Made by a program: the position numbers and the translations under genes | Shown here: positions 24,811 through 35,904 of the stretch, one piece after another | How the letters are laid out: every line of letters starts with the position of its first letter | How positions within the stretch are numbered: the stretch's first letter is position 1 | Source: an uncultured Planctomycetaceae bacterium | Lineage (GTDB): Bacteria > Planctomycetota > Planctomycetia > Planctomycetales > Planctomycetaceae | Direction: 5' to 3' | DNA: 36,136 nt | Assembly (NCBI GenBank): GCA_937916515.1 | Contig: CALFSX010000026.1 | Coordinates: 1 to 36,136 of the forward strand | Notes under the pieces: model-generated | What the model was told of the DNA's origin: nothing | Seen by the model: the letters and a program-made list of their open reading frames with translations, nothing else | Databases searched by the model: none

Positions 24811-26568
24811 ATGAAGTATGCCCTTTGCATTACAGGTGTTCTGGCTGGCTTGGCGTTAGCATGTCCCGTGCTTGTGCTTGTGGTGGTGGCATACTACTTG
24901 CCGACTGTGCCCGGGGGGGTGATCCTCACGATCGCTCCAACCGTGTTCGTCTATCTGGCTGGAACCGCAGCGGTTCGCCGGATGCTTCCCATCGCTTCGG
25001 CTTTCAAGGCGACCGCAGTTAGTTTCGGGCTAATGCTTGGGCTTGGGTGGCTTGTTATGCAACCGTTTCGTAGCAATCCGTTCAAGGAATATGCGTCAGA
25101 CCGCCAGCCTGACGTCGTAGCCGATCGCGCGATCGAATTGAGCGGACGTGTCCGCATCGAGGCGGCGGATTCCCGAAATGATCCCCATTGCGGATATCAC
25201 TGCTTGGCTCTCCTCGATTTGCCCGAGGTTGAAAGTGTGACGATGGTGACATCCGGACGCCGCAAGGAGCCCGGTCTGCAACAATCTGCTGCCTACGTTT
25301 TAGAGTCTGCTGAAGACAGTCCCGCTGCCGGTTTGTTTCCGAATAATTCTGGACAGATCGTCCGGGAGTTTCGTCCGTTGGGCTGGGATTTCGGAAGACT
25401 GAAGGTGACTGCGGCGGCCAAAGCTGTGGAAGCCGATTGGGCTTTGCGACTGGCGGGGCGTTCCCGATTGCGAAAGACTGATCCGGTTCCGTCCGACGTG
25501 GCGGATTGGGGCATCGAAATTGACCAACGAAGGGAAGGTGCAAACTCCACGATTCGCCGCGTTACCGTTTGCGATTCGACTGGGGAGGTACGATTTCGTA
25601 AGAGCTACCTGGAACGTCATGTGCCGGCTGCCATGTTTTACTTCGGGTTCGAAGCCTTCACCGGCGGCGGAACGATTTCCGGAGCTTCCTTCCATATCGG
25701 CCGACAAGGCCTGCATGCCGGCGAAAGATCTCTGCATCTGAAATCGGAACTATTGGGCGCCATCAATTTTCGGGTTTCACAATGTGATGCGACATTCATC
25801 ACGCGACTGCGATCTGCTGCCGAGCAAGCCCTGGACGCACCTGAAGCTTCTGACGTCCAGCTCGATCTGGCTCGCCGGTACCTTGGGCTGTTCTACTTTG
25901 ATGCGAAAGAGCAGGACTATGAATTGATTGCAGGAATCGTGTCTGACAACCGTGTCGAAGGCATCGACGAGCAGCTTATGAATGTCTTCTCAAAGAAGAA
26001 GACGCCGAAGGCAGTGCGAAACGCGCATGCCGAACGAATCGCAATGAACCATACTTCGGCTGAACTCAGACTGTGGTTGGCCGAAAGCCTGACTGCATTA
26101 CCATCGGGTACTTTTGCTGCCCCGACGGCGGCCCACCTGAAGATCTGGACTTCGCCTGAAATCTATCGGGATGCGGGGGCATTCTTTTCCAGAACCGCTG
26201 ATCTTGGAGCGACGCAAGCACTTTCGATGCTTAACGCAGCTCTTGATACCGCGATCACAATCCCCAGTTGGTCCGAGCGTCGACCTTTGGTTGGTGGAAT
26301 TCGTGAGGCATTCGTTCGACTCGGGCCATCGGCTTTGAGCGCCGCAACGCGTGTGCGTGAGCTGTTTCTGCTTCGTCCTTCACCTCTCATGAACAACTCC
26401 GGTGAGGCTGATGAATGGCGATTCGCCCTCGCTCGAATGGGAGTCGAGGAAAAGGATCTGCCGTTTTTTCCCAATCAGTCGATCAGCACAGCTCAACGCA
26501 TCTCTCGCAAGGTCGCCCAAAATCTTCACCGATATGAACAGGAACTCGTTGCGGATTCAGGAACATGA
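24811..26568 (+). CDS. Unrecognised 585-residue protein with N-terminal membrane helices
   Basis: No family is recognised. The first 85 residues form three hydrophobic segments (about 4-27, 34-54 and 62-84). The remaining 500 residues are hydrophilic, presumably one soluble region facing one side of the membrane. Residues about 95-345 are predicted mixed sheet and contain a conserved-looking HCGYHCLALLDLPEVESV. The rest is mainly helical, with repeated Leu- and Ala-rich helices that could be a scaffold (for example ATQALSMLNAALDTAITIPS). There are no catalytic or nucleotide-binding motifs. Its stop overlaps the next gene's start (ATGA), so the two form a pair. Confidence 0.75.
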   Translation: MKYALCITGVLAGLALACPVLVLVVVAYYLPTVPGGVILTIAPTVFVYLAGTAAVRRMLPIASAFKATAVSFGLMLGLGWLVMQPFRSNPFKEYASDRQPDVVADRAIELSGRVRIEAADSRNDPHCGYHCLALLDLPEVESVTMVTSGRRKEPGLQQSAAYVLESAEDSPAAGLFPNNSGQIVREFRPLGWDFGRLKVTAAAKAVEADWALRLAGRSRLRKTDPVPSDVADWGIEIDQRREGANSTIRRVTVCDSTGEVRFRKSYLERHVPAAMFYFGFEAFTGGGTISGASFHIGRQGLHAGERSLHLKSELLGAINFRVSQCDATFITRLRSAAEQALDAPEASDVQLDLARRYLGLFYFDAKEQDYELIAGIVSDNRVEGIDEQLMNVFSKKKTPKAVRNAHAERIAMNHTSAELRLWLAESLTALPSGTFAAPTAAHLKIWTSPEIYRDAGAFFSRTADLGATQALSMLNAALDTAITIPSWSERRPLVGGIREAFVRLGPSALSAATRVRELFLLRPSPLMNNSGEADEWRFALARMGVEEKDLPFFPNQSISTAQRISRKVAQNLHRYEQELVADSGT

Positions 26569-27071
26569 TTGAAACGATATGGACTCACGTTTTTGGGTAT
26601 GGCGTCTTCATTGGCCTGATTTACGGCATCTGGAAATGCAATGCCCGACGTTGGACGCGTCTGGCCCATATTTGCGGGGCCGCCGACACGTCTGATTTTG
26701 ACACGTCAGACTGCGATAGCAAGCGTATGCAGACCGTCATCCTCACCGGGGGCGACGTGGGATGGAATTAGTACAAGGGCATCGTAACCGTCGTGTTGAC
26801 GAGAGACGGCATTTTGTTCCAGCTCAGGTTGCCATTCTCTATCTTCCATCCGCCGCTTCTGATCCCATTTTGCGACATTCAGGTTTCGCCCAAGCGCTGG
26901 TACTTGTTTGGTAAGTCGTTCCAGTTGACCCTGACTGGCGTGAATGACGTGCGGATAATTATTCACGCTGATTTGATTGCCTGGATTGAGCAGCAAGCAA
27001 GCTGGTCGTTGAATTCGCGACAGAAAATCGGGGCGCTCAAGATTATCAAGATCGAAATCCTGAAGTGCTGA
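26565..27071 (+). pseudogene. Small membrane protein gene interrupted by an in-frame TAG
   Basis: The frame from ATG 26565 encodes 68 residues, with a helix at about 8-24 (FGYGVFIGLIYGIW), then TAG at 26769-26771. It goes on in the same frame for 99 more codons to TGA 27069-27071. The part after TAG (YKGIVTVVLTRDGILFQLRL, then FHPPLLIPFCDIQVSP) resembles a family of planctomycete membrane-linked proteins of unknown function that read 'GLYLS...HPPLFIPW'. The segment before TAG fits the start of the same family. A single nonsense change is the simplest reading. ATG 26793 is an alternative start for the second part. The ATGA overlap ties the gene to the 585-residue protein. Confidence 0.65.
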
Positions 27072-27239
27072 TCTGACGCCCTGTCTCATGGCGACAGAAA
27101 CACGGATGAACCACAGCCGTCTCAACAAGACGTCAGTGCTGTTCGGCAGGAATTGCATCATTGTCGCCGATTCAGGACAATTGCAATTCCGTTTTTGAGC
27201 CCATCCGTCAGTGGGGCAATCTGCGCGGATAACTGTGCG

Positions 27240-27692
27240 TCAGTTTGTGTACCTTGCGATGACGTCAGCTCGATTGAGTAATTCGACGAGCGACGGATTG
27301 ACGGGAACACCTTTAGACGTTTGTCCTGACAGGACTTCGTCGCTGGTCAACCAACTTACGTCCCTGTTGAGCTCAACCATCCCGCGACTCGCCTTTCCGT
27401 ACAGGTCTGCGATGTAGAACTCCACCACAAAGAAAGTTTCGTCGTCTGCTGCTTCTACCGGCACGTCAAGGTGCAGCCGAGCCTGACTGGAAACGATGTA
27501 ATCCTTCCCACGGCGTAAGTCCAGAACCCAGGCGATCTCACGATCAAGACATTCTCGGAAGGATTCGTCGTCGAGGCGTTCTGCCGTCACGAAGTCAAAG
27601 TATTGACGACGTGAGTCCCAATGGGCCAGCCAGAGATGCTCCAGCTGTTCAGGGTGCCTTAACAGGGCGACTGATCCCGTGAAATGATTCAT
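27240..27692 (-). CDS. Nudix-like protein with a degenerate Nudix box
   Basis: A 150-residue soluble protein. The layout suggests a Nudix fold: an N-terminal strand (HFTGSVALLRH), a segment DDESFRECLDREIAWVLDLR where the Nudix box REuxEExGu would lie, and later strands DETFFVVEFYIADLYG and SWLTSDEVL. The REI of the box is present, but the metal-binding EE pair is replaced by Trp-Val, so hydrolase activity is unlikely. The similarity is weak and the call is an inference. It stands alone on the minus strand in a region of broken genes. The ATG at 27692 is the only sensible start. Confidence 0.5.
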   Translation of the reverse strand: MNHFTGSVALLRHPEQLEHLWLAHWDSRRQYFDFVTAERLDDESFRECLDREIAWVLDLRRGKDYIVSSQARLHLDVPVEAADDETFFVVEFYIADLYGKASRGMVELNRDVSWLTSDEVLSGQTSKGVPVNPSLVELLNRADVIARYTN

Positions 27693-27889
27693 GTGTCTTC
27701 CGTCTTGATTGGCAACTGAGCTATTTCATCAGTCGGTATGTGAGAACAAGCACCAGTATTCCTTGCGCTGTTCGTGCTTCAGGTCTTATCCCATTTTTGT
27801 AGACACAAGTTTTTGGTAGGCGTTCGTTGAGAATTCTACGGCCAACGATTTATGAGCAGGTGCAGACAACATCGCGGTCGCCAGTCAAA

Positions 27890-28057
27890 TCAAAACCGCG
27901 AGTCCGATGTCTTGAATCGTTGATGTCGTTCTTCATACATTTTGAACTGCGCCTGCCCGAAATTCGCGACCAGCAGATGACGCACAACCTGTACAAACCA
28001 GGTCAGCCCCGCCATGAAGAGGGTGGCAACGATATGAGCCATCGTAATTAACTTCAT
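27890..28057 (-). pseudogene. N-terminal stub of a small membrane protein
   Basis: A 55-residue frame starts MKLITMAHIVATLFMAGLTW and goes on FVQVVRHLLVANFGQ, YEERHQRFKT, SDSRF. The pattern 'LTGLIWFVQIVHYPLF...YE..H..RT' is the beginning of a family of four-helix membrane proteins of about 150 residues. Here the frame ends where the second helix should begin. The following bases hold a piece in another frame (LATAMLSAPAHKS) that could be a leftover of helix 2, again blocked by a stop. I read it as a decayed gene. A genuine single-helix small protein is less likely. Confidence 0.5.
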
Positions 28058-28144
28058 TGGCTACGCTTTTTGAAATAACGTGGTTGTCGTTGACTTAGAT
28101 CCCCTAACAAACCCGCCTGAGACGCGGCACCGTTGCAATTCCAT

Positions 28145-29188
28145 TCACGACAAGACCGAAGAGCATGTTGCAGTGCCTGATGGAACTTCGCAACTCTGAG
28201 GGAATGCAGCAAGTGCGACATAGTCTGGCCGATCGGCTGCAGAGTCGTGCCGGAACCCCGCCAATACTTGTCCGTTATGCAGCAGGAAAGCACCTGGCAT
28301 TCGAAAACCGTTGCCATTGAGTGCTCCGATACCGTGGCCGGCTAGTGCCGCCTTCATGCCGCGAAACCAGACTTTCGGTCCGAACAGTTGCCTGAAGGAA
28401 CCGATTCGCAACCCAAAGTATTCCTACAGTTGACCAGTGGCGTCACGGAAGCAATGCACGTCTTCAAGACCGTATTTCTTCAGCAGGTCGACGGGTTCTT
28501 CTGCTCCCATGTGAATCAGGGCAATGCGAGTTCCCTTCGCTTCGATCTGTTCTCGCAATTCTGAAAGATCGCCAAGCGTTTCGCGGCAGAAAGTACACCC
28601 GGAATGCCTCAGCAGTACTACAAGCGTTGGCTGGCTTCGTGACAGCTCGCTCAAGCTTGCTCCCCGTTGGCTGATGAAGCGTTGGAAGGGATCGAGTTTT
28701 AAGCGTACAGGCGGCACCACCAGCAAATCTGACTGCGATTGATTTGCCACGGCAGCATTCCACAGGATCAAAGCAAAGGGAACCCACCAAATCAAATCGT
28801 TGGTTAGGATGGTCCAGCCCATGGATAAAGGAAAGCTCCCGGAGGTCACGGCACCGACAAATCCGATTGGACCAAACACTTTTCCGAGCAATCCGACGAG
28901 AACAATCGGCCAGTGTCGGTAGGGATTTGTTGCGGCGATCGCATAACCGATACCGTAGACGCCGACGATCATGCCGACGCACTGCCAAAGTTGCGGGTAG
29001 GACGGCAATGGATCAAATCCAGCCCATCGGAATATCGTCAGCGGGGTAAGAATGGCAAACGCACCCCACAACAGGTTGTAAGCCGCTGCGGCCAACAGTA
29101 CATTCCGCATCCAGTGTGGAACGGAATGCGATGTGGCTCCAGCGTTTTTTAAGTCCTCAATTCGTGTTGGTTCGACCGCCATAATCAT
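28145..29188 (-). pseudogene. Membrane/thioredoxin-like fusion gene, copy 1, interrupted by an in-frame TAG
   Basis: Paralogue of the gene at 33092-34063. From ATG 29188 the product has four helices (about 27-140: NVLLAAAAYNLLWGAFAIL and onward), then a thioredoxin-like domain with RHSGCTFCRETLGDL. It meets TAG at 28424-28426, codon 255, and then continues in the same frame for 92 codons (EYFGLRIGSFRQLFG, GNGFRMPGAFLLHNG, GFRHDSAADRPDYV). At the TAG the intact paralogue has Tyr238 (GRLYRQFGL against GQL*EYFGL), so TAC/TAT to TAG is the likely change. The frame is open upstream to 29512, but that part has no counterpart in the paralogue and probably is not translated. Confidence 0.8.
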
Positions 29189-29870
29189 TGTTTTTCCCGT
29201 GCCATGCCGTGCCGTGGTTGCTGCTGGTGCCGCTGCACCTTTTTCACTCAGATGACCTGTTGTAGGCGAGAATGAGCATCTGGCGACCTGACAAGACTCA
29301 GGGCAGTCCCTCAATGCGCTGCGTTCAGGGCGTGACTGGGGTTGATGGACCGCTGAGTTCTCCGGAAGCGGTTTAAAAAGCGTTGAGAATGTCACTTCGC
29401 GGCCGCCGGCGTCAGTCGTAGCCCCGCTGCGAATCGGAGTTTCTTCGTGCAGACCCAAGTTTAGCGGCCGTTGCTCGGGGCCTTGAAAGTGCTTCACAAG
29501 TTGCCAAAACACGCTGGTCGCTTCACGTTCCGGGCCTAGAACCTAGCGTCGCGGGCTGTAAGAGGAATTCTTACAACTGCACGAGTATACGAAAATTCGA
29601 TAGGCGACCTCTGGCGGGCGACGTGTGTATTCCGGTGGATCTGCTCGACGCGACTTCTGGTTCCATAACAGCCTAAGTTTGCGTCGCATGGAAAGAACGA
29701 ACACTCCTGCGGCGAGCGGTACGGTTGGTTCTCGTAATGACTTTCGGGAATATGGCTGTTTTCGTGAGCGTGCAAATATAACGCGATAAGCTCCCGGTCG
29801 GCATCACTTTGGCTGAACTGCTGTCCAAAAGAAACAAAACTGTGCACCAATAGTCCTTGGGGGCAGCTTG
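29189..29870. other. Long spacer without supported genes (682 bases)
   Basis: The minus frame stays open from 29512 to 29189 (MFWQLVKHFQGPEQRPLNLG and onward) but has biased composition and no family I can name. The stretch 29536-29870 has open frames only in the wrong phase. No tRNA, hairpin terminator or insertion-sequence end was found. Degenerate mobile DNA is possible but not shown. Confidence 0.4.
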
Positions 29871-30890
29871 ATGTCTGATTCGTCCAGTAATTCGTCTCCT
29901 GAGATGGCGATCGTCGGAGCAGGTATGGCCGGACTCGCTTGTGCTGCTCAACTTCGTGCGGCTGGGGTTTCAGTGAGCGTCTTCGACAAAGGCCGCAGGC
30001 CCGGTGGTCGCATGTCGACTCGAGCCGTTGACGACAGATTGTCATTCGATCACGGTTGTCAGTACTTTTCCGCGAACGATCCGATTTTTGAGAGACAAGT
30101 GCAATTGTGGATCGACGCGGGAGTTGCGTCCGTATGGAGTGGCAATGTGGCTGATCTTGAAGACGGGCGAATCACTCGAAAGCAAACTGCACGTGCTCGT
30201 TACGTCGGCGTCCCGGAAATGGCTTCTGTCTGCTCACACCTTGCCACAAAAGTTGACGTCCGCGGCGGTGTTGACGTCAATGAAGCACAGCGAATGGATA
30301 ACAAGTGGAATCTTCTCAACGACAAGGGAACGCCCCTCGGACAATTTGACGCAGTCATTGTGGCAACTCCGCCAGCGCAGGCAGAGAAATTAATATCGCG
30401 TTCGTCCTATCTTTTAGCCGTTGTGCAAAGCGTAAAAATGTCGTCGTGCTGGACGGTTATGCTGGCTTTTCAAAAACGCGTTGGATGCTCTTTTGAAGCA
30501 GCTGTCGTTCATAACTCTCCATTGTCGTGGATTGCTCGAAACGGCAGCAAGACAGGCAGAATCAATACGACAGATTGCTGGGTAGGACAGGCACGTGCAG
30601 CATGGTCAGCGCAGCGTCTTGAAGCATCACGAGACGAAATTGCGGCGGAACTTGCTGACGAATTCTGCAAAGCAGTCGGCATTTCCGCAAAGCCCAATTA
30701 CCTCGCAGGTCACCGTTGGAAATACGCAATCCCAAGTACGCCTCTTGATAAACAGTGCTTGTTTGATGACACGCTGAACGTCGGTCTGTGCGGCGACTGG
30801 TGCCTTGGCAATCGCGTCGAAGCTGCGTGGCTAAGTGGTACGGCCGCCGCGGATCGTGTGTTATCGCGAGTTGCAAAGACGGCTGGCTGA
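29871..30890 (+). CDS. Renalase-like FAD/NAD(P)-dependent oxidoreductase (COG3380 type)
   Basis: A flavoprotein of the amine-oxidase fold. The 339 residues open with the dinucleotide-binding MAIVGAGMAGLACAAQLRAA (12-31) and the FDKGRRPGGRMSTR motif (38-52) of the renalase-like group. A mid-segment DHGCQYFSANDP and a C-terminal FAD-contact stretch GLCGDWCLGNRVEAAWLSG follow. Bacterial members oxidise off-pathway dihydronicotinamide isomers or have unknown substrates; the reaction here is not certain. ATG 29871 after GGGGG is preferred to the TTG one codon earlier. In other bacteria such genes often sit near photolyase and DUF2256 genes. It is transcribed towards the convergent DUF454 gene. Confidence 0.87.
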   Translation: MSDSSSNSSPEMAIVGAGMAGLACAAQLRAAGVSVSVFDKGRRPGGRMSTRAVDDRLSFDHGCQYFSANDPIFERQVQLWIDAGVASVWSGNVADLEDGRITRKQTARARYVGVPEMASVCSHLATKVDVRGGVDVNEAQRMDNKWNLLNDKGTPLGQFDAVIVATPPAQAEKLISRSSYLLAVVQSVKMSSCWTVMLAFQKRVGCSFEAAVVHNSPLSWIARNGSKTGRINTTDCWVGQARAAWSAQRLEASRDEIAAELADEFCKAVGISAKPNYLAGHRWKYAIPSTPLDKQCLFDDTLNVGLCGDWCLGNRVEAAWLSGTAAADRVLSRVAKTAG

Positions 30891-30910
30891 CCGTAGCAAG
30901 CGGCGTAACT

Positions 30911-31390
30911 TTAATCACGTGGCTCTGGCAGTTTTACGATCACCACGATGCCAATGCCTGCAGCGACAGAGACAATCAGCGACGGAACGAGAGAAAATTG
31001 CGTGACGTACACAGAAAGGCCAATCGCAAGAAAGACAAAAGAAATCGCCTTCGCCTTAACTGCGCGGCGAACTCCGCCTTTGACGTGCCAGTCGACAAGT
31101 ATGGGGCCGAACAGTTTTGATTTAATCAAGCGTTCGTTGAGTCGTGGATACGACCGCACGAGAAAGTAGCTCGTCAGCAACAGGAATGGTGTTGTCGGCA
31201 GGCCCGGCAGAATCACCCCAGCCATGGCCAGGACAAAGAACCCACCGGCCAATAACAGATAAAGCATACGACGCAACCCAGTCACCGATTGTGTCGTTGT
31301 CATCACGCTGGATTGATGCACGTCGAGTCGCCGTGATGAGTACCAATGCGATCGCTCAACGTTTCGCTGTTTTGTCTGGACGGTCTTCAT
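30911..31390 (-). CDS. DUF454 (YbaN-like) inner-membrane protein
   Basis: A small membrane protein of unknown function. The family signature is clear: AGVILPGLPTTPFLLLTSYF followed by VRSYPRLNERLIKSKLFGP and the downstream helices SFVFLAIGLSVYVTQF and SLIVSVAAGIGIVVI. The 159-residue frame starts at 31390, where ATG overlaps the mqo stop (TGATG), which favours coupling. An in-frame ATG at 31303 would give 130 residues, closer to the usual family length. It ends 20 bases from the convergent renalase-like gene, with no terminator visible between them. Confidence 0.85.
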   Translation of the reverse strand: MKTVQTKQRNVERSHWYSSRRLDVHQSSVMTTTQSVTGLRRMLYLLLAGGFFVLAMAGVILPGLPTTPFLLLTSYFLVRSYPRLNERLIKSKLFGPILVDWHVKGGVRRAVKAKAISFVFLAIGLSVYVTQFSLVPSLIVSVAAGIGIVVIVKLPEPRD

Positions 31391-32886
31391 CAGCCACGGG
31401 GTTTCAATTTAAGGGTTTCGTCACAACGTGCGTGGATATCTCGAAACTCCTGAATCGAAGAAGGAGACAACAGGTCCAGCTTATAAGTCGGAAACATGCT
31501 GCCAAGCGTTTTGGCGGATTCGGGGTGCTCAAGAACGTTGGGAAGACAGTCCTGAATCACTTGAAGCATCAATGCGACGGACACGGAGGCGCCGGGGGAA
31601 GCGCCGAGGAGCGCGGCAATGGTCTTTTCTTTGTTCGTGACGATCTCCGTACCGTAATGAACGATCCCGGCCTCACCGTCCGTACGCTTTATCGCCTGAA
31701 CGCGAATTCCTGCATCCATCAATCGCCAGTCTTTCCGGTCGGCTTCGGGATAGAATGTGCGGAGTAATTGCATCCGGCTTTCCATGCTCTGAAGCCCCTG
31801 CTGAATCAGGTATTTCACCAGCGGCAGGTTATAGGCTCCGACCTTCAACAGTGACGCAATGTTGTCAGGACGGACTGAAAACGGCAGATCGGTCAGGCGT
31901 CCCGTTTTTTTCAGGAAGCGAGTCGTCCACGCAGCAAATGGGCCGAATAGCAGAGCCTTTGTGCCGTCGATCACCCGCGTGTCCAGATGAGGTACCGCCA
32001 TCGTCGGCGCTTCGCCCTGCGCCTGGCCATACACCTTGGCCTGATGCTGAGCCACGATTTTCGGATTGTCGCAAACCAACCACTGGCCACCGATCGGAAA
32101 TCCACCGAATCCTTTGCTTTCAGGAATCCCCGATTTCTGCAGCAACGGCAGACTTCCGCCACCGGCACCGATGAAAACGAAGTCTGCCGAGGTCTCTAGA
32201 ACTTCATTCCGGCGAAGGTCCTTCACTTGAACCGTCCAACCGTTTGCTTTCTTTTGGATTCCGATGACTCGATGACTTACGGCGACTGCACAATTGGGCT
32301 GATCGGCGAGCCAGTTCATAAGTTTCCGCGACACAGATCCAAAGTTCACATCCGTGCCGTCGCCCATGCGCGTCGCAGCGATCGGTTCATCGTCTCGCCC
32401 ATTAATCAGCAGAGGCGCCCAGTTTTGCACTTCTGCCCGATCTGTCGAGAATTGCATTCTGTCAAAGAAGTGATGAGCCGACATGGCGGCGTGTCGGTCT
32501 CGCAGGAATTCGACCGGTGGTTGGCCTCGAACGAAACTCAAGTGCGGAACTGGGCGTATGAAATCCTGCGGGGAATCGATCATTCCTTCCGAAACAGCGA
32601 AAGCCCAGAATTGTCGCGACTTTTCAAACTGGTCATAAATGGCTATCGCGTTAGACACGTCGATATCGCCGTTCTCGTCTCGGTCCGGCGTGTAGCTAAG
32701 TTCGCAGATGCCGGCATGACCGGTCCCGGCGTTGTTCCATGCGTTCGAGCTCTCCTGTGCAAGCTCTTCAGAAACCTCGTAAACCTGAAGCTTCAGTTCA
32801 GGCCGCAGGCATTTCAGCATCGCGCCCAGATTGGCCGACATGATGCCGCTACCGATCAGAATGATGTCGGTTCTATTGCTGCGCAT
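31390..32886 (-). CDS. mqo: Malate:quinone oxidoreductase
   Basis: Peripheral membrane flavoenzyme that oxidises malate to oxaloacetate and hands the electrons to quinone, bypassing soluble malate dehydrogenase. The 498 residues match the family length. They begin DIILIGSGIMSANLGAMLK (FAD fold) and contain QESSNAWNNAGTGHAGICEL, GFGGFPIGGQWLVC, FGPFAAWTTRFLKK, and the C-terminal LLGASPGASVSVALML. The enzyme would supply the same quinone pool that ACIII drains. It is coupled at its end with the DUF454 gene (TGATG). The 205 bases before it hold no clear promoter. Confidence 0.97.
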   Translation of the reverse strand: MRSNRTDIILIGSGIMSANLGAMLKCLRPELKLQVYEVSEELAQESSNAWNNAGTGHAGICELSYTPDRDENGDIDVSNAIAIYDQFEKSRQFWAFAVSEGMIDSPQDFIRPVPHLSFVRGQPPVEFLRDRHAAMSAHHFFDRMQFSTDRAEVQNWAPLLINGRDDEPIAATRMGDGTDVNFGSVSRKLMNWLADQPNCAVAVSHRVIGIQKKANGWTVQVKDLRRNEVLETSADFVFIGAGGGSLPLLQKSGIPESKGFGGFPIGGQWLVCDNPKIVAQHQAKVYGQAQGEAPTMAVPHLDTRVIDGTKALLFGPFAAWTTRFLKKTGRLTDLPFSVRPDNIASLLKVGAYNLPLVKYLIQQGLQSMESRMQLLRTFYPEADRKDWRLMDAGIRVQAIKRTDGEAGIVHYGTEIVTNKEKTIAALLGASPGASVSVALMLQVIQDCLPNVLEHPESAKTLGSMFPTYKLDLLSPSSIQEFRDIHARCDETLKLKPRG

Positions 32887-33091
32887 GGACTACTGCCTTT
32901 CCTGAACGGGCCCTATCAACGAAGGTCGCGAGTCTTCAAATGAAGGAAATTCTCCGACGGCCCTTTATAGACCGCTCATCGCGGTTTTAAAGCCGTGCCA
33001 AATTCGTTGCGAACCGCACAAACATCGATCGGGGCGACTGGCGCATTCCACAAATACGAACCGTGAAGAGTGGCGATTGCGTTTTGCAATG

Positions 33092-34063
33092 CTAAGCAAG
33101 GGCTGGCTGCTGCTTCCGCCGAACCTGTTGTGCTAACGAGACATAGTCGGGCCGGTCGCTCGCGTGATCGTGCCTGAAGCCTCCCAGAATCTGCCCACGG
33201 TGGTAAAGGTAGACGCCCGGCATCTGAAAACTGTTTCCACTCACAGCACCTCGACCATGGCCATTTAAGACACCAGCGATGAATCCGCGAATCCAGACTC
33301 GCAGACCGAACAATTGCGAGAAACCTCCAAGATCAAGTCCGAACTGCCTGTACAACCGACCTTCCGGATCTGAAAACCGAGGCACATCCTGCAGGCCGTA
33401 TTGTTTGAAAAATCTGTCGTCTTCTTCAGATGCTCCGCCCAGGTGTACAATGACAATTCCAGTTCCTGTCTCTTCAATCTGCTTGCGCTGTTTTGAAATG
33501 TCAGACAGAGCTTCTCGACAGAATGTACATCCGGCGTGACGCAAAAACAGTACGAGTTGTGGTGATTCATTCGCCAGATCATTTAGATATTGGCTCGTGT
33601 TTGCTTCGATGTCACGCAACGGATCGTCAGCTTCCGGCATTACGTAAGCCGACCCGGCGGCGTGATAAGAAAGCACAGCCCGCCAGAGGATGATTCCGAA
33701 CGGAATGCACCAGATCAGGTCGTTTGTTAAAACGATCCACCCCATCCGTGCCGGCAAGGAACCTTCCACGAACGCGACAAGAAACCCAGCGGCGACGGCT
33801 GCTTTTCCCAGCAGGCCGACAACTGTGATTGCCCAGTGACGGTACGGATCATAAGACGCGATGACGTATCCCACACCGTAAACGCCAACCGCAATTCCGA
33901 TGCACTGCCAAAGCTGTGAAGCAACAGGTGTCGTTGTAATATCAGCGAAGGTCAGCAAAGAGCCCGGCGAAAGCACGCACAGAAGTCCCCACAACAGGTT
34001 ATACACACCGGCCGCGAAGAGCGTCCTCTTCATCCATGGCTGAGCATCGTAATAATTATTCAT
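33092..34063 (-). CDS. Membrane/thioredoxin-like fusion protein, copy 2 (intact)
   Basis: A 323-residue fusion. Residues about 12-130 form four membrane helices (TLFAAGVYNLLWGLLCVL; LWQCIGIAVGVYGVGYVIA; two more) of a type seen alone in other bacteria. Residues about 150-318 are a thioredoxin-like domain of the AhpC/TSA-related kind with Cys179-Thr-Phe-Cys182 (RHAGCTFCREAL) and a C-terminal MPGVYLYHRGQILGGFRHD. A membrane-bound thiol reductase or peroxidase is a fair guess; substrate unknown. The frame opens at 34144, but that start lies inside the sigma gene. ATG 34063 fits the first helix. The gene begins 28 bases after the sigma gene and is probably cotranscribed with it. It ends in TAG. 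Confidence 0.85.
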   Translation of the reverse strand: MNNYYDAQPWMKRTLFAAGVYNLLWGLLCVLSPGSLLTFADITTTPVASQLWQCIGIAVGVYGVGYVIASYDPYRHWAITVVGLLGKAAVAAGFLVAFVEGSLPARMGWIVLTNDLIWCIPFGIILWRAVLSYHAAGSAYVMPEADDPLRDIEANTSQYLNDLANESPQLVLFLRHAGCTFCREALSDISKQRKQIEETGTGIVIVHLGGASEEDDRFFKQYGLQDVPRFSDPEGRLYRQFGLDLGGFSQLFGLRVWIRGFIAGVLNGHGRGAVSGNSFQMPGVYLYHRGQILGGFRHDHASDRPDYVSLAQQVRRKQQPALA

Positions 34064-34091
34064 TGGTGAACCTCGAACACGCAGTTGAAAA

Positions 34092-34952
34092 CTACGTTGC
34101 AAAAATGGATTCGAACGGCTGCGCGACTTCCGCCAGTTTCTCAAGGGCGGACAATTGCAATTGGCGGACCCGTTCCTTGCTCAATCCCAGCTGGGCAGCA
34201 AGTTCCCTCAGCGTGCTGGTTTGTTCCGATTCGTTTAAGCCGAATCGGGAGCGAATGATGATTCGTTCGCGTTCGTCCAGCACATCATCCAGTCGCTCCA
34301 TCACGGCTTCAGCAGCTATCAGGACGTCGGCAGCCGACGGACCGGTGTTAGCTGACGAATCAGCCGCAATCGCATCAACAGAGTCGCTCGCCAGCCTTTC
34401 GCGCGCCCGTCGTCTTGATGCCCGTTCAATGAAACGGTACAGGTGCCGTTGTACGGCGTGGGTGGCATAAGTGCTGAAGCGATAGCCTCTCGCAAAGTCG
34501 AATTTGTCGATGGCATTCAGCAGAATTCCATTGGCTTCGCTGACGTACTCATCAAAGTCATCTGTTCCTGAGGAAAACTTTCGAGCGATCGACATCACAA
34601 GTCGCATGTTTGCACGAGCGATGTCTTCGCGTGTTTCCTGCGCTCCCTGCAGCAGACGCTCAATTTCCTTAATCACTTTTCGGGGGCGTTTCCCTGCAAG
34701 AGTAGACTGCAGAGCGTTTGCTCGAAAGCGAAGGAAGTTGAGCCGTTTAAACAGGAACTGCTCTCCTTCGAAAGTCAGTATTCGACTTTCTTCGATGGCC
34801 TGTATGAACGTTGTCGCGGCTTCACTTCTGTCAACCGGCCCGGACCGCCCCTCTTCGGCAGCATAAAGTTCGATATCCATTGCTTCGAAGTCAAGTTCCG
34901 TGGTGGAGTCGAAAGCTTCGTTCGGGATAAACTTGATTTCTGGTTCATTCAA
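34092..34952 (-). CDS. RNA polymerase sigma-70 family factor, second planctomycete-type copy
   Basis: A relative of the factor at 18864-19853. The 286 residues have a shorter N-terminus, then a shared stretch FKRLNFLRFRANAL, region 2 at about 104-185 (ANMRLVMSIARKF, EANGILLNAIDKFDFARG, FSTYATHAVQRHLYRF), and region 4 at about 218-276 (DERERIIIRSRFGL, TLRELAAQLGLSKERVRQLQ). Again the region 2.3 tryptophans are replaced (THAVQR) and region 3 is minimal. It heads a probable two-gene unit with the membrane/thioredoxin-like protein. An oxidative or envelope stress role would fit that partner but is inferred. It ends with TAG. Confidence 0.92.
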   Translation of the reverse strand: MNEPEIKFIPNEAFDSTTELDFEAMDIELYAAEEGRSGPVDRSEAATTFIQAIEESRILTFEGEQFLFKRLNFLRFRANALQSTLAGKRPRKVIKEIERLLQGAQETREDIARANMRLVMSIARKFSSGTDDFDEYVSEANGILLNAIDKFDFARGYRFSTYATHAVQRHLYRFIERASRRRARERLASDSVDAIAADSSANTGPSAADVLIAAEAVMERLDDVLDERERIIIRSRFGLNESEQTSTLRELAAQLGLSKERVRQLQLSALEKLAEVAQPFESIFAT

Positions 34953-35310
34953 GCAACTTTGCCTTCCACAAACATCCGGGGCTGTAGTTTTTCAGGTCGT
35001 GGACCGACGAGAATAAGCGACATCCAAAGAAACCTTATGCAGTATAGCAGAACACGAGAATCAAATTTGAACGGCAGGTTCGGCATTATTCGATAAACAC
35101 AAATTCTTCAGTATTACGCTGCGATGCCCTGCCGTTGCACGATGAAGGGTTGCTTTTTGCGGCGAACGCCGTTCATGGAGGGCAATTGATTGTGCGGCAC
35201 GTGTGGCCATCTGCCAGCCGTGGTCTAGAAAATCACAACTTGATACGATGCTCCAGCGCCGCTGCGGATGCTCTGTTGACGAACTCATATGTCTCTAGAA
35301 TGAAGCTGTT
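34953..35310. other. Divergent spacer between the sigma and SOUL genes (358 bases)
   Basis: The only promoter-like element is TATACT on the minus strand (35041-35046), about 90 bases before the sigma start, with a poor TTCAAA -35 match 19 bases further upstream. A 75-codon minus frame at 35061-35288 resembles nothing. No promoter is evident for the SOUL gene. Confidence 0.35.
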
Positions 35311-35904
35311 ATGGGTGCAAACAAAATGGCATATGTTCTTGCGGCTGGCGGGTTAGCGATCCTTTTGTATCTCGGCTGGTCACTAACGTCCAGAAACGCT
35401 TACGAGACAGCTGCTTATGACGTGATCATGTCCGACGGGGCGTTCGAAGTGCGCGAGTATCCGGATCTGATGATGGCCACGACGATAATGAAATCTTCAA
35501 ATGGTAACGACGGTAGTTTAAACCGATTGTTCTCCTACATAAGCGGGGCCAATGAGAACAATCAAAAAGTCTCGATGACAACGCCTGTCTTTATGGATGC
35601 GGAATCGGAAGATCATCCGGGCCAGATGGGATTCGTCGTACCTGCGTCCGTTGTTGCTGACGGAGCACCGATGCCGTCTGACGTAAATGTTGAATTGCGG
35701 AGTCGGGAAGCCGGGCGGTTTGCTGTGATTCGTTTCAGTGGTCGGCTCGATGTTTCGACCAGACGCTAGGCTGAACAACGTTTGAAGCAATGGATGTCAG
35801 AGCACGAATTTACTTCTTCCGGCGAGGCCGAGTCCGCTGGCTACGATCCTCCGTGGACTCCGGGTCCTTTTCGCCGTAACGAAGTACTTGTGCGACTTCA
35901 ATGA
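35311..35904 (+). pseudogene. SOUL haem-binding family gene interrupted by an in-frame TAG
   Basis: Membrane-anchored SOUL/HBP domain protein. From ATG 35311: one helix at about 6-24, then YETAAYDVIMSDGAFEVREY, VSMTTPVFMDAE, MGFVVPASV, and FAVIRFSGRLDVSTRR. TAG follows at 35767-35769 (codon 153). The frame continues for 44 codons as AEQRLKQWMSEHEFTSSGEA, AGYDPPWTPGPFRRNEVLVR, and then TGA 35902-35904. The second part is the standard C-terminal end of SOUL proteins (AGYDPPWTPGPLRRNEV), so the native product is about 197 residues. Without it the last strand and helix of the fold are lost. SOUL proteins bind haem or tetrapyrroles; the role in bacteria is unclear. Confidence 0.88.

Follow-up and report, generated by a model that had tools for sequence, protein, structure and literature searches.

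Three genes within 10 kb of one planctomycete contig are each cut by a single in-frame TAG, raising the question of whether this codon is decoded as an amino acid at these sites or simply ends translation in genes that are otherwise whole. The window (the whole stretch of DNA analyzed here, 36136 bases) is an entire contig (C26); the draft genome to which it belongs totals 8.33 Mb, has 343 contigs and is 99.3% complete. Its host is a Fuerstiella-like planctomycete; the best named match of gene 2 is a Fuerstiella MAG (JAQWLN010000101.1), and G004, a genome of the same genus, consists of one contig of 8.92 Mb.

Three frames, each with one TAG

The features discussed below are as follows.

24811..26568 (+): partner gene of gene 1, intact, 585 aa; the pair occurs in G003 and twice in G004 (L236, L240, L241)
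26565..27071 (+): gene 1, small protein matching no family; a frame of 168 codons, cut at codon 69
26769..26771 (+): the TAG that cuts gene 1; three close homologues have Ser here, and two distant ones have Asn and Lys (homologue alignment)
28145..29188 (-): gene 2, N-terminal hydrophobic part (by eye) and a SelL-related, AhpC/TSA-like redox domain (NCBIfam); a frame of 347 codons, cut at codon 255
28424..28426 (-): the TAG that cuts gene 2, inside the redox domain; all 18 homologue rows have Tyr
33092..34144 (-): a paralogue of gene 2 (49% identity), intact and itself ending in TAG (homologue search and sequence)
35311..35904 (+): gene 3, SOUL haem-binding family protein (PF04832, 8.3e-38); a frame of 197 codons, cut at codon 153
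35767..35769 (+): the TAG that cuts gene 3; homologues vary at this position (D, S, E, A, Q, K, V)

Each of the three frames contains exactly one in-frame TAG and stays open beyond it, closing at TGA, and no other lesion was seen in any of them. The closest homologues align through each TAG in one stretch, with a sense codon at the site and without a frameshift, so the part downstream is genuinely coding and reaching it requires no frameshift. The initial annotation had described three genes each cut by a single TAG without a frameshift, and both the frames as read and the alignments that cross the sites bear this out. When the readthrough products were aligned with intact homologues, as it had proposed, every row covering a site had a sense residue there (5 rows for gene 1, 18 for gene 2 and 16 for gene 3); homologues stopping at the same place, which would have spoken against its account, were absent among these rows.

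Homologues of the three genes

Residues 173-327 of gene 2 match the SelL-related redox protein family (NCBIfam NF040769) at 121.5 bits against a cut-off of 120, and its matches to AhpC/TSA models fall under their cut-offs. The gene aligns over residues 1-347 at 83% identity with a gene on contig C80 of G007, where the gene order is that of the window (fasciclin, folE, queD, the 27240 gene, gene 2, the 29868 gene and the DUF454 gene). This common order identifies the G007 gene, which is intact, as the orthologue of gene 2 in place. Identities to G007 of the syntenic neighbors are 67% for the 29868 gene, 78% for the 27240 gene, 83% for queD, 86% for folE and 89% for the fasciclin gene. Gene 2 and its orthologue share 218 of 254 residues before the stop and 68 of 87 after it, and the same tendency toward lower conservation after the stop is found with the other three relatives compared. 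The residue at the TAG is Tyr in all 18 covering rows (from 29 loci given to the alignment), and a wider survey found Tyr in 47 of 48 matches and Phe in one. Two full-length paralogues of gene 2 are present in the same genome.

Five other homologue matches to gene 2 carry an in-frame TGA, three of them at the first Cys of a CxxC motif; in L331 the stop lies outside the alignment, and L327 could not be aligned. The three are distant homologues (in G055, G037 and G013; 24%, 26% and 21% identical) whose TGA coincides precisely with the first CxxC cysteine of gene 2, and they have Tyr where gene 2 has its TAG. The TGA therefore sits at another place and is another stop codon, and it gives no support to decoding of TAG; taken with the tRNA-Sec of the window's genome, it looks like ordinary selenocysteine use.

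Gene 3 aligns over residues 1-197 at 72-74% with two G007 genes and was found in 17 of 58 genomes, its own included; in G002, as in the window, it adjoins the 34092 sigma gene and the 33092 gene. Among the 18 loci given to its alignment, 16 rows cover the TAG (two of them the same gene), with Asp in 4, Ser in 4, Glu in 3, Ala in 2 and Gln, Lys and Val in 1 each.

Gene 1 lies directly downstream of its partner gene, with a 4-base overlap, and neither gene matched any family in Pfam or NCBIfam. Residues 1-146 of its 168 align at 67% with a G004 gene. Ser occupies the site of the TAG in the three close homologues (67%, 59% and 56% identical), and Asn and Lys occupy it in the two distant ones (31%). 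Five of the 58 genomes, its own included, contain gene 1, two of them as weak matches, and the syntenic G007 stretch has no match to either gene of the pair. The window thus holds at 24811-27071 a two-gene cassette without family matches that occurs twice in G004 and was not found in the syntenic stretch of G007.

Decoding of TAG

A general reassignment of TAG to an amino acid could in principle explain three frames that remain open and homologous after this codon, but several findings argue against it. Two release factors are encoded, both with GGQ, one carrying the tripeptide PET and the other SPF, which we take to mark the RF1 and RF2 types. TAG is the commonest stop of 335 ORFs of at least 300 aa in a mechanical ORF list covering 810 kb, a sample of about 10% of the genome (TAG 126, TAA 108, TGA 101); in 1.4 Mb of G004 the order differs (TGA 228, TAG 169, TAA 169). 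The window sequence confirms that seven neighboring genes end in TAG, as the initial annotation had stated. Furthermore, the residues replaced differ between the three sites (Ser in gene 1, Tyr in gene 2, variable in gene 3), so no single decoding of TAG fits them all. With an RF1-type gene kept, TAG the commonest terminator and no one residue suited to every site, we reject general recoding, against which the initial annotation had rightly argued, and consider reassignment exceedingly improbable. The case serves mainly as a warning that an open frame after TAG, even three times in 10 kb, does not amount to evidence for recoding when the residues differ and RF1 and normal TAG use are retained.

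More restricted forms of decoding fared no better. A suppressor tRNA, the option for which the initial annotation had suggested a genome search, was not found: none of 57 tRNA-family matches, all read with ARAGORN, has a CUA anticodon. Since the first look had scored only 150 of 310 candidates, a search for a CUA-loop-plus-T-arm pattern was added; it gave 15 matches, 2 of them tRNAs (Glu and Arg) and none with CUA, compared with 58 matches in a reversed control. A suppressor tRNA was accordingly rejected, as was pyrrolysine insertion, because the two matches to PylS reached at best 26 bits against a cut-off of 178 and no CUA tRNA was found. The three genes resemble known cases of pyrrolysine or selenocysteine insertion and amber-suppressor codes in having an in-frame stop within a gene. 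They differ from the pyrrolysine and amber-suppressor systems in that this genome has neither a PylS match over the cut-off nor a CUA tRNA, and from selenocysteine insertion in that the sole tRNA-Sec has the anticodon TCA and the TAG of gene 2 is at a Tyr position later in the domain than the CxxC motif.

Constraint and the frequency of interrupted genes

The initial annotation had hinted that three stops all of the TAG type might carry meaning. Given the codon usage of 810 kb and transition weights of 1, 2 or 4, a random nonsense change produces TAG in 39-42% of cases, so that three TAGs are expected with a probability of 0.059-0.076 and three stops of any one kind with a probability of 0.120-0.124. 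The uniformity is not clearly beyond chance (about 6-8% for TAG), and a gene elsewhere in the genome is cut by TAA; the hint is therefore unsupported.

Ratios of dN/dS could be compared for those pairs in which the parts before and after the TAG were both measurable, the remaining comparisons having saturated synonymous sites before the TAG, after it or on both sides. The values before and after the stop were 0.103 and 0.114 for gene 2 against G007, 0.193 and 0.150 for gene 1 against G004, and 0.136 and 0.116 as well as 0.165 and 0.157 for gene 3 against the two G007 genes; for gene 3 against G002 they were 0.106 and 0.289, the latter from the 43 codons after the stop. Constraint is thus similar on both sides of each TAG, suggesting that the lesions are young. 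On these ratios, a lesion would be too young, or a base call too recently wrong, for relaxation to show, and readthrough would look identical.

How ordinary such interruptions are was surveyed with the ORFs of relatives, which matched 171 loci without overlap, 185 kb in all, within the 810 kb sampled from the genome itself; the window contains 21 of these loci, amounting to 15.6 kb. After removal of artefacts, 3 of the 21 loci in the window (genes 1, 2 and 3) and 1 of the 150 outside it were interrupted, a local excess that is post hoc, as the window was picked for it and homologues of the three genes were fetched on purpose. The sole case outside is a response-regulator-like gene cut in its receiver domain by an in-frame TAA at C62:113949 (-) (joined loci L194-L199). 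In G004, 1 of 190 loci was credibly interrupted, by a TAG in a gene 34% identical to its query, presumably a planctomycete cytochrome-type protein from its motif. Among pieces of G002, G003, G006 and G007, 1 of 40 loci was interrupted, namely the G002 homologue of the 27240-27692 gene of the window, which is cut by an in-frame TGA (L237, 13660-14019). A survey with the genome's own paralogues had small coverage (131 bins of 300 bases) and recovered the TAA case in C62 as well as gene 2; scanning for in-frame stops by codon usage was useless, missing the three known cases, and a sulfatase-family survey in the genus, giving best-scoring rows only, has no bearing on pseudogene rates.

Several candidate interruptions were discarded. 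Rows at C297 56037/56496, C62 56790/56889, G4g 139316 and L231 494-899 lie opposite a longer ORF and look like antisense artefacts; C26 22516-22633, 28343-28826 and 33371-33728 each fall inside a gene that the window carries on the other strand, and the query behind G4x240 10442/10598 was an ORF antisense to gene 1. The TGA at C26 24808 and the stop in the L231 queD match are upstream of likely start codons, G4x240 1099 shortly precedes a frame of 232 codons, C133 29247 falls where a domain match ends, and C38 65099 is missing from the best single alignment. The TAG in L037 is the ordinary end of that gene, and the one in the 33092 match is the 33092 gene's own stop.

Origin of the interruptions

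In our judgment the three stops probably arose by nonsense substitutions, recent and independent of one another, in genes that this Fuerstiella-like planctomycete can do without. We infer that the organism truly carries these changes and makes no useful full-length protein from the three genes. Translation would terminate at UAG via RF1, each gene yielding a truncated product only: gene 1 would lose more than half its length and gene 2 about half its redox domain, and in gene 3 the SOUL domain would be cut short from codon 153 (of 197). The lesions would be younger than the split from the sister species. Comparison among genomes suggests that the genes are dispensable or redundant, genes 1 and 3 being patchily distributed and gene 2 backed by paralogues. 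Different residues at the three sites are as expected of unrelated mutations, and the TAA-cut gene in this genome, the TAG-cut gene in G004 and the TGA-cut gene in G002 indicate that such lesions occur in the genus. Young bacterial pseudogenes of the nonsense type are an already known kind, with which the three genes have several features in common, namely one in-frame stop each, dispensability, no other damage, intact homologues and an alignable downstream part; in these sequence features no difference was found. Counting against nonsense substitutions are the local excess of 3 of 21 loci compared with 1 of 150, though post hoc, and the unrelaxed dN/dS after the stop, which is equally expected of readthrough or a base error. 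Of the options offered by the initial annotation (nonsense mutation, suppressor or sequence error), nonsense is thus the best reading, the suppressor tRNA was not found, and sequence error remains the main rival.

Alternatively, at least one of the three TAGs may be a base error of the draft assembly, the genes being intact in the organism. We regard this as unlikely, but with enough in its favor to be taken seriously: the draft is in 343 contigs, the contig that forms the window has only 36136 bases, each stop is followed by little change in constraint, and the genes show no other lesion. It applies above all to gene 3, whose stop lies 367 bases from the contig end. However, few random coding substitutions make stops, so three such errors would imply many missense errors nearby, whereas gene 2 is as similar to its G007 orthologue (83%) as the syntenic neighbors are to theirs (67-89%), with low dN/dS and no frameshifts in any of the three genes. 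It is also possible that UAG is read through at a useful level at the three sites, so that near-cognate tRNAs, or a suppressor that escaped the search, would allow a little full-length protein to be made, an idea taken from Belinky et al. 2021 (PMC7918605). According to that paper, in-frame stops in bacterial genes are widespread, often with low dN/dS, so the constraint retained here, about as strong downstream as upstream, follows a known pattern. The likeness lies in the low dN/dS around an in-frame stop; to limit artefacts, that study focused on stops common to at least two species, whereas no homologue row shares a stop with the three genes, and hence nothing about these stops is conserved. 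Nor do the sites show marks of programmed readthrough, there being no stop common to the covering rows and no common context, since the flanking codons differ, as does the base after the stop (T, G and G). With no CUA tRNA found, an RF1-type gene present and no positive sign at any site, we consider readthrough improbable. That the genes are still used, with leaky UAG termination supplying redox, haem-binding and membrane-type proteins of full length in low amounts that perhaps depend on conditions, as a transient way to lower expression, strikes us as quite improbable. Were readthrough shown, these genes would offer a test in nature of whether in-frame stops serve as short-lived control of expression.

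Selenocysteine and tRNA-like features

A tRNA-Sec with anticodon TCA was found at L103 392-484, and the genome probably makes selenoproteins. Candidate selenoproteins with UxxC motifs were also noted in G055, G037 and G013 (L328 around 674-198 (-), L329 and L330). Closely spaced tRNA genes form three clusters, with 8, 5 and 7 members (L090, L096 and L097 in C260, C297 and C235); many of these genes score low, and the clusters duplicate normal isoacceptors and recall the tRNA arrays of mobile elements. In C335, a stretch resembling the 3' half of a tRNA, with T arm and acceptor end (L324, around 1501-1573), was not called a tRNA by ARAGORN and is perhaps an attachment-site remnant.
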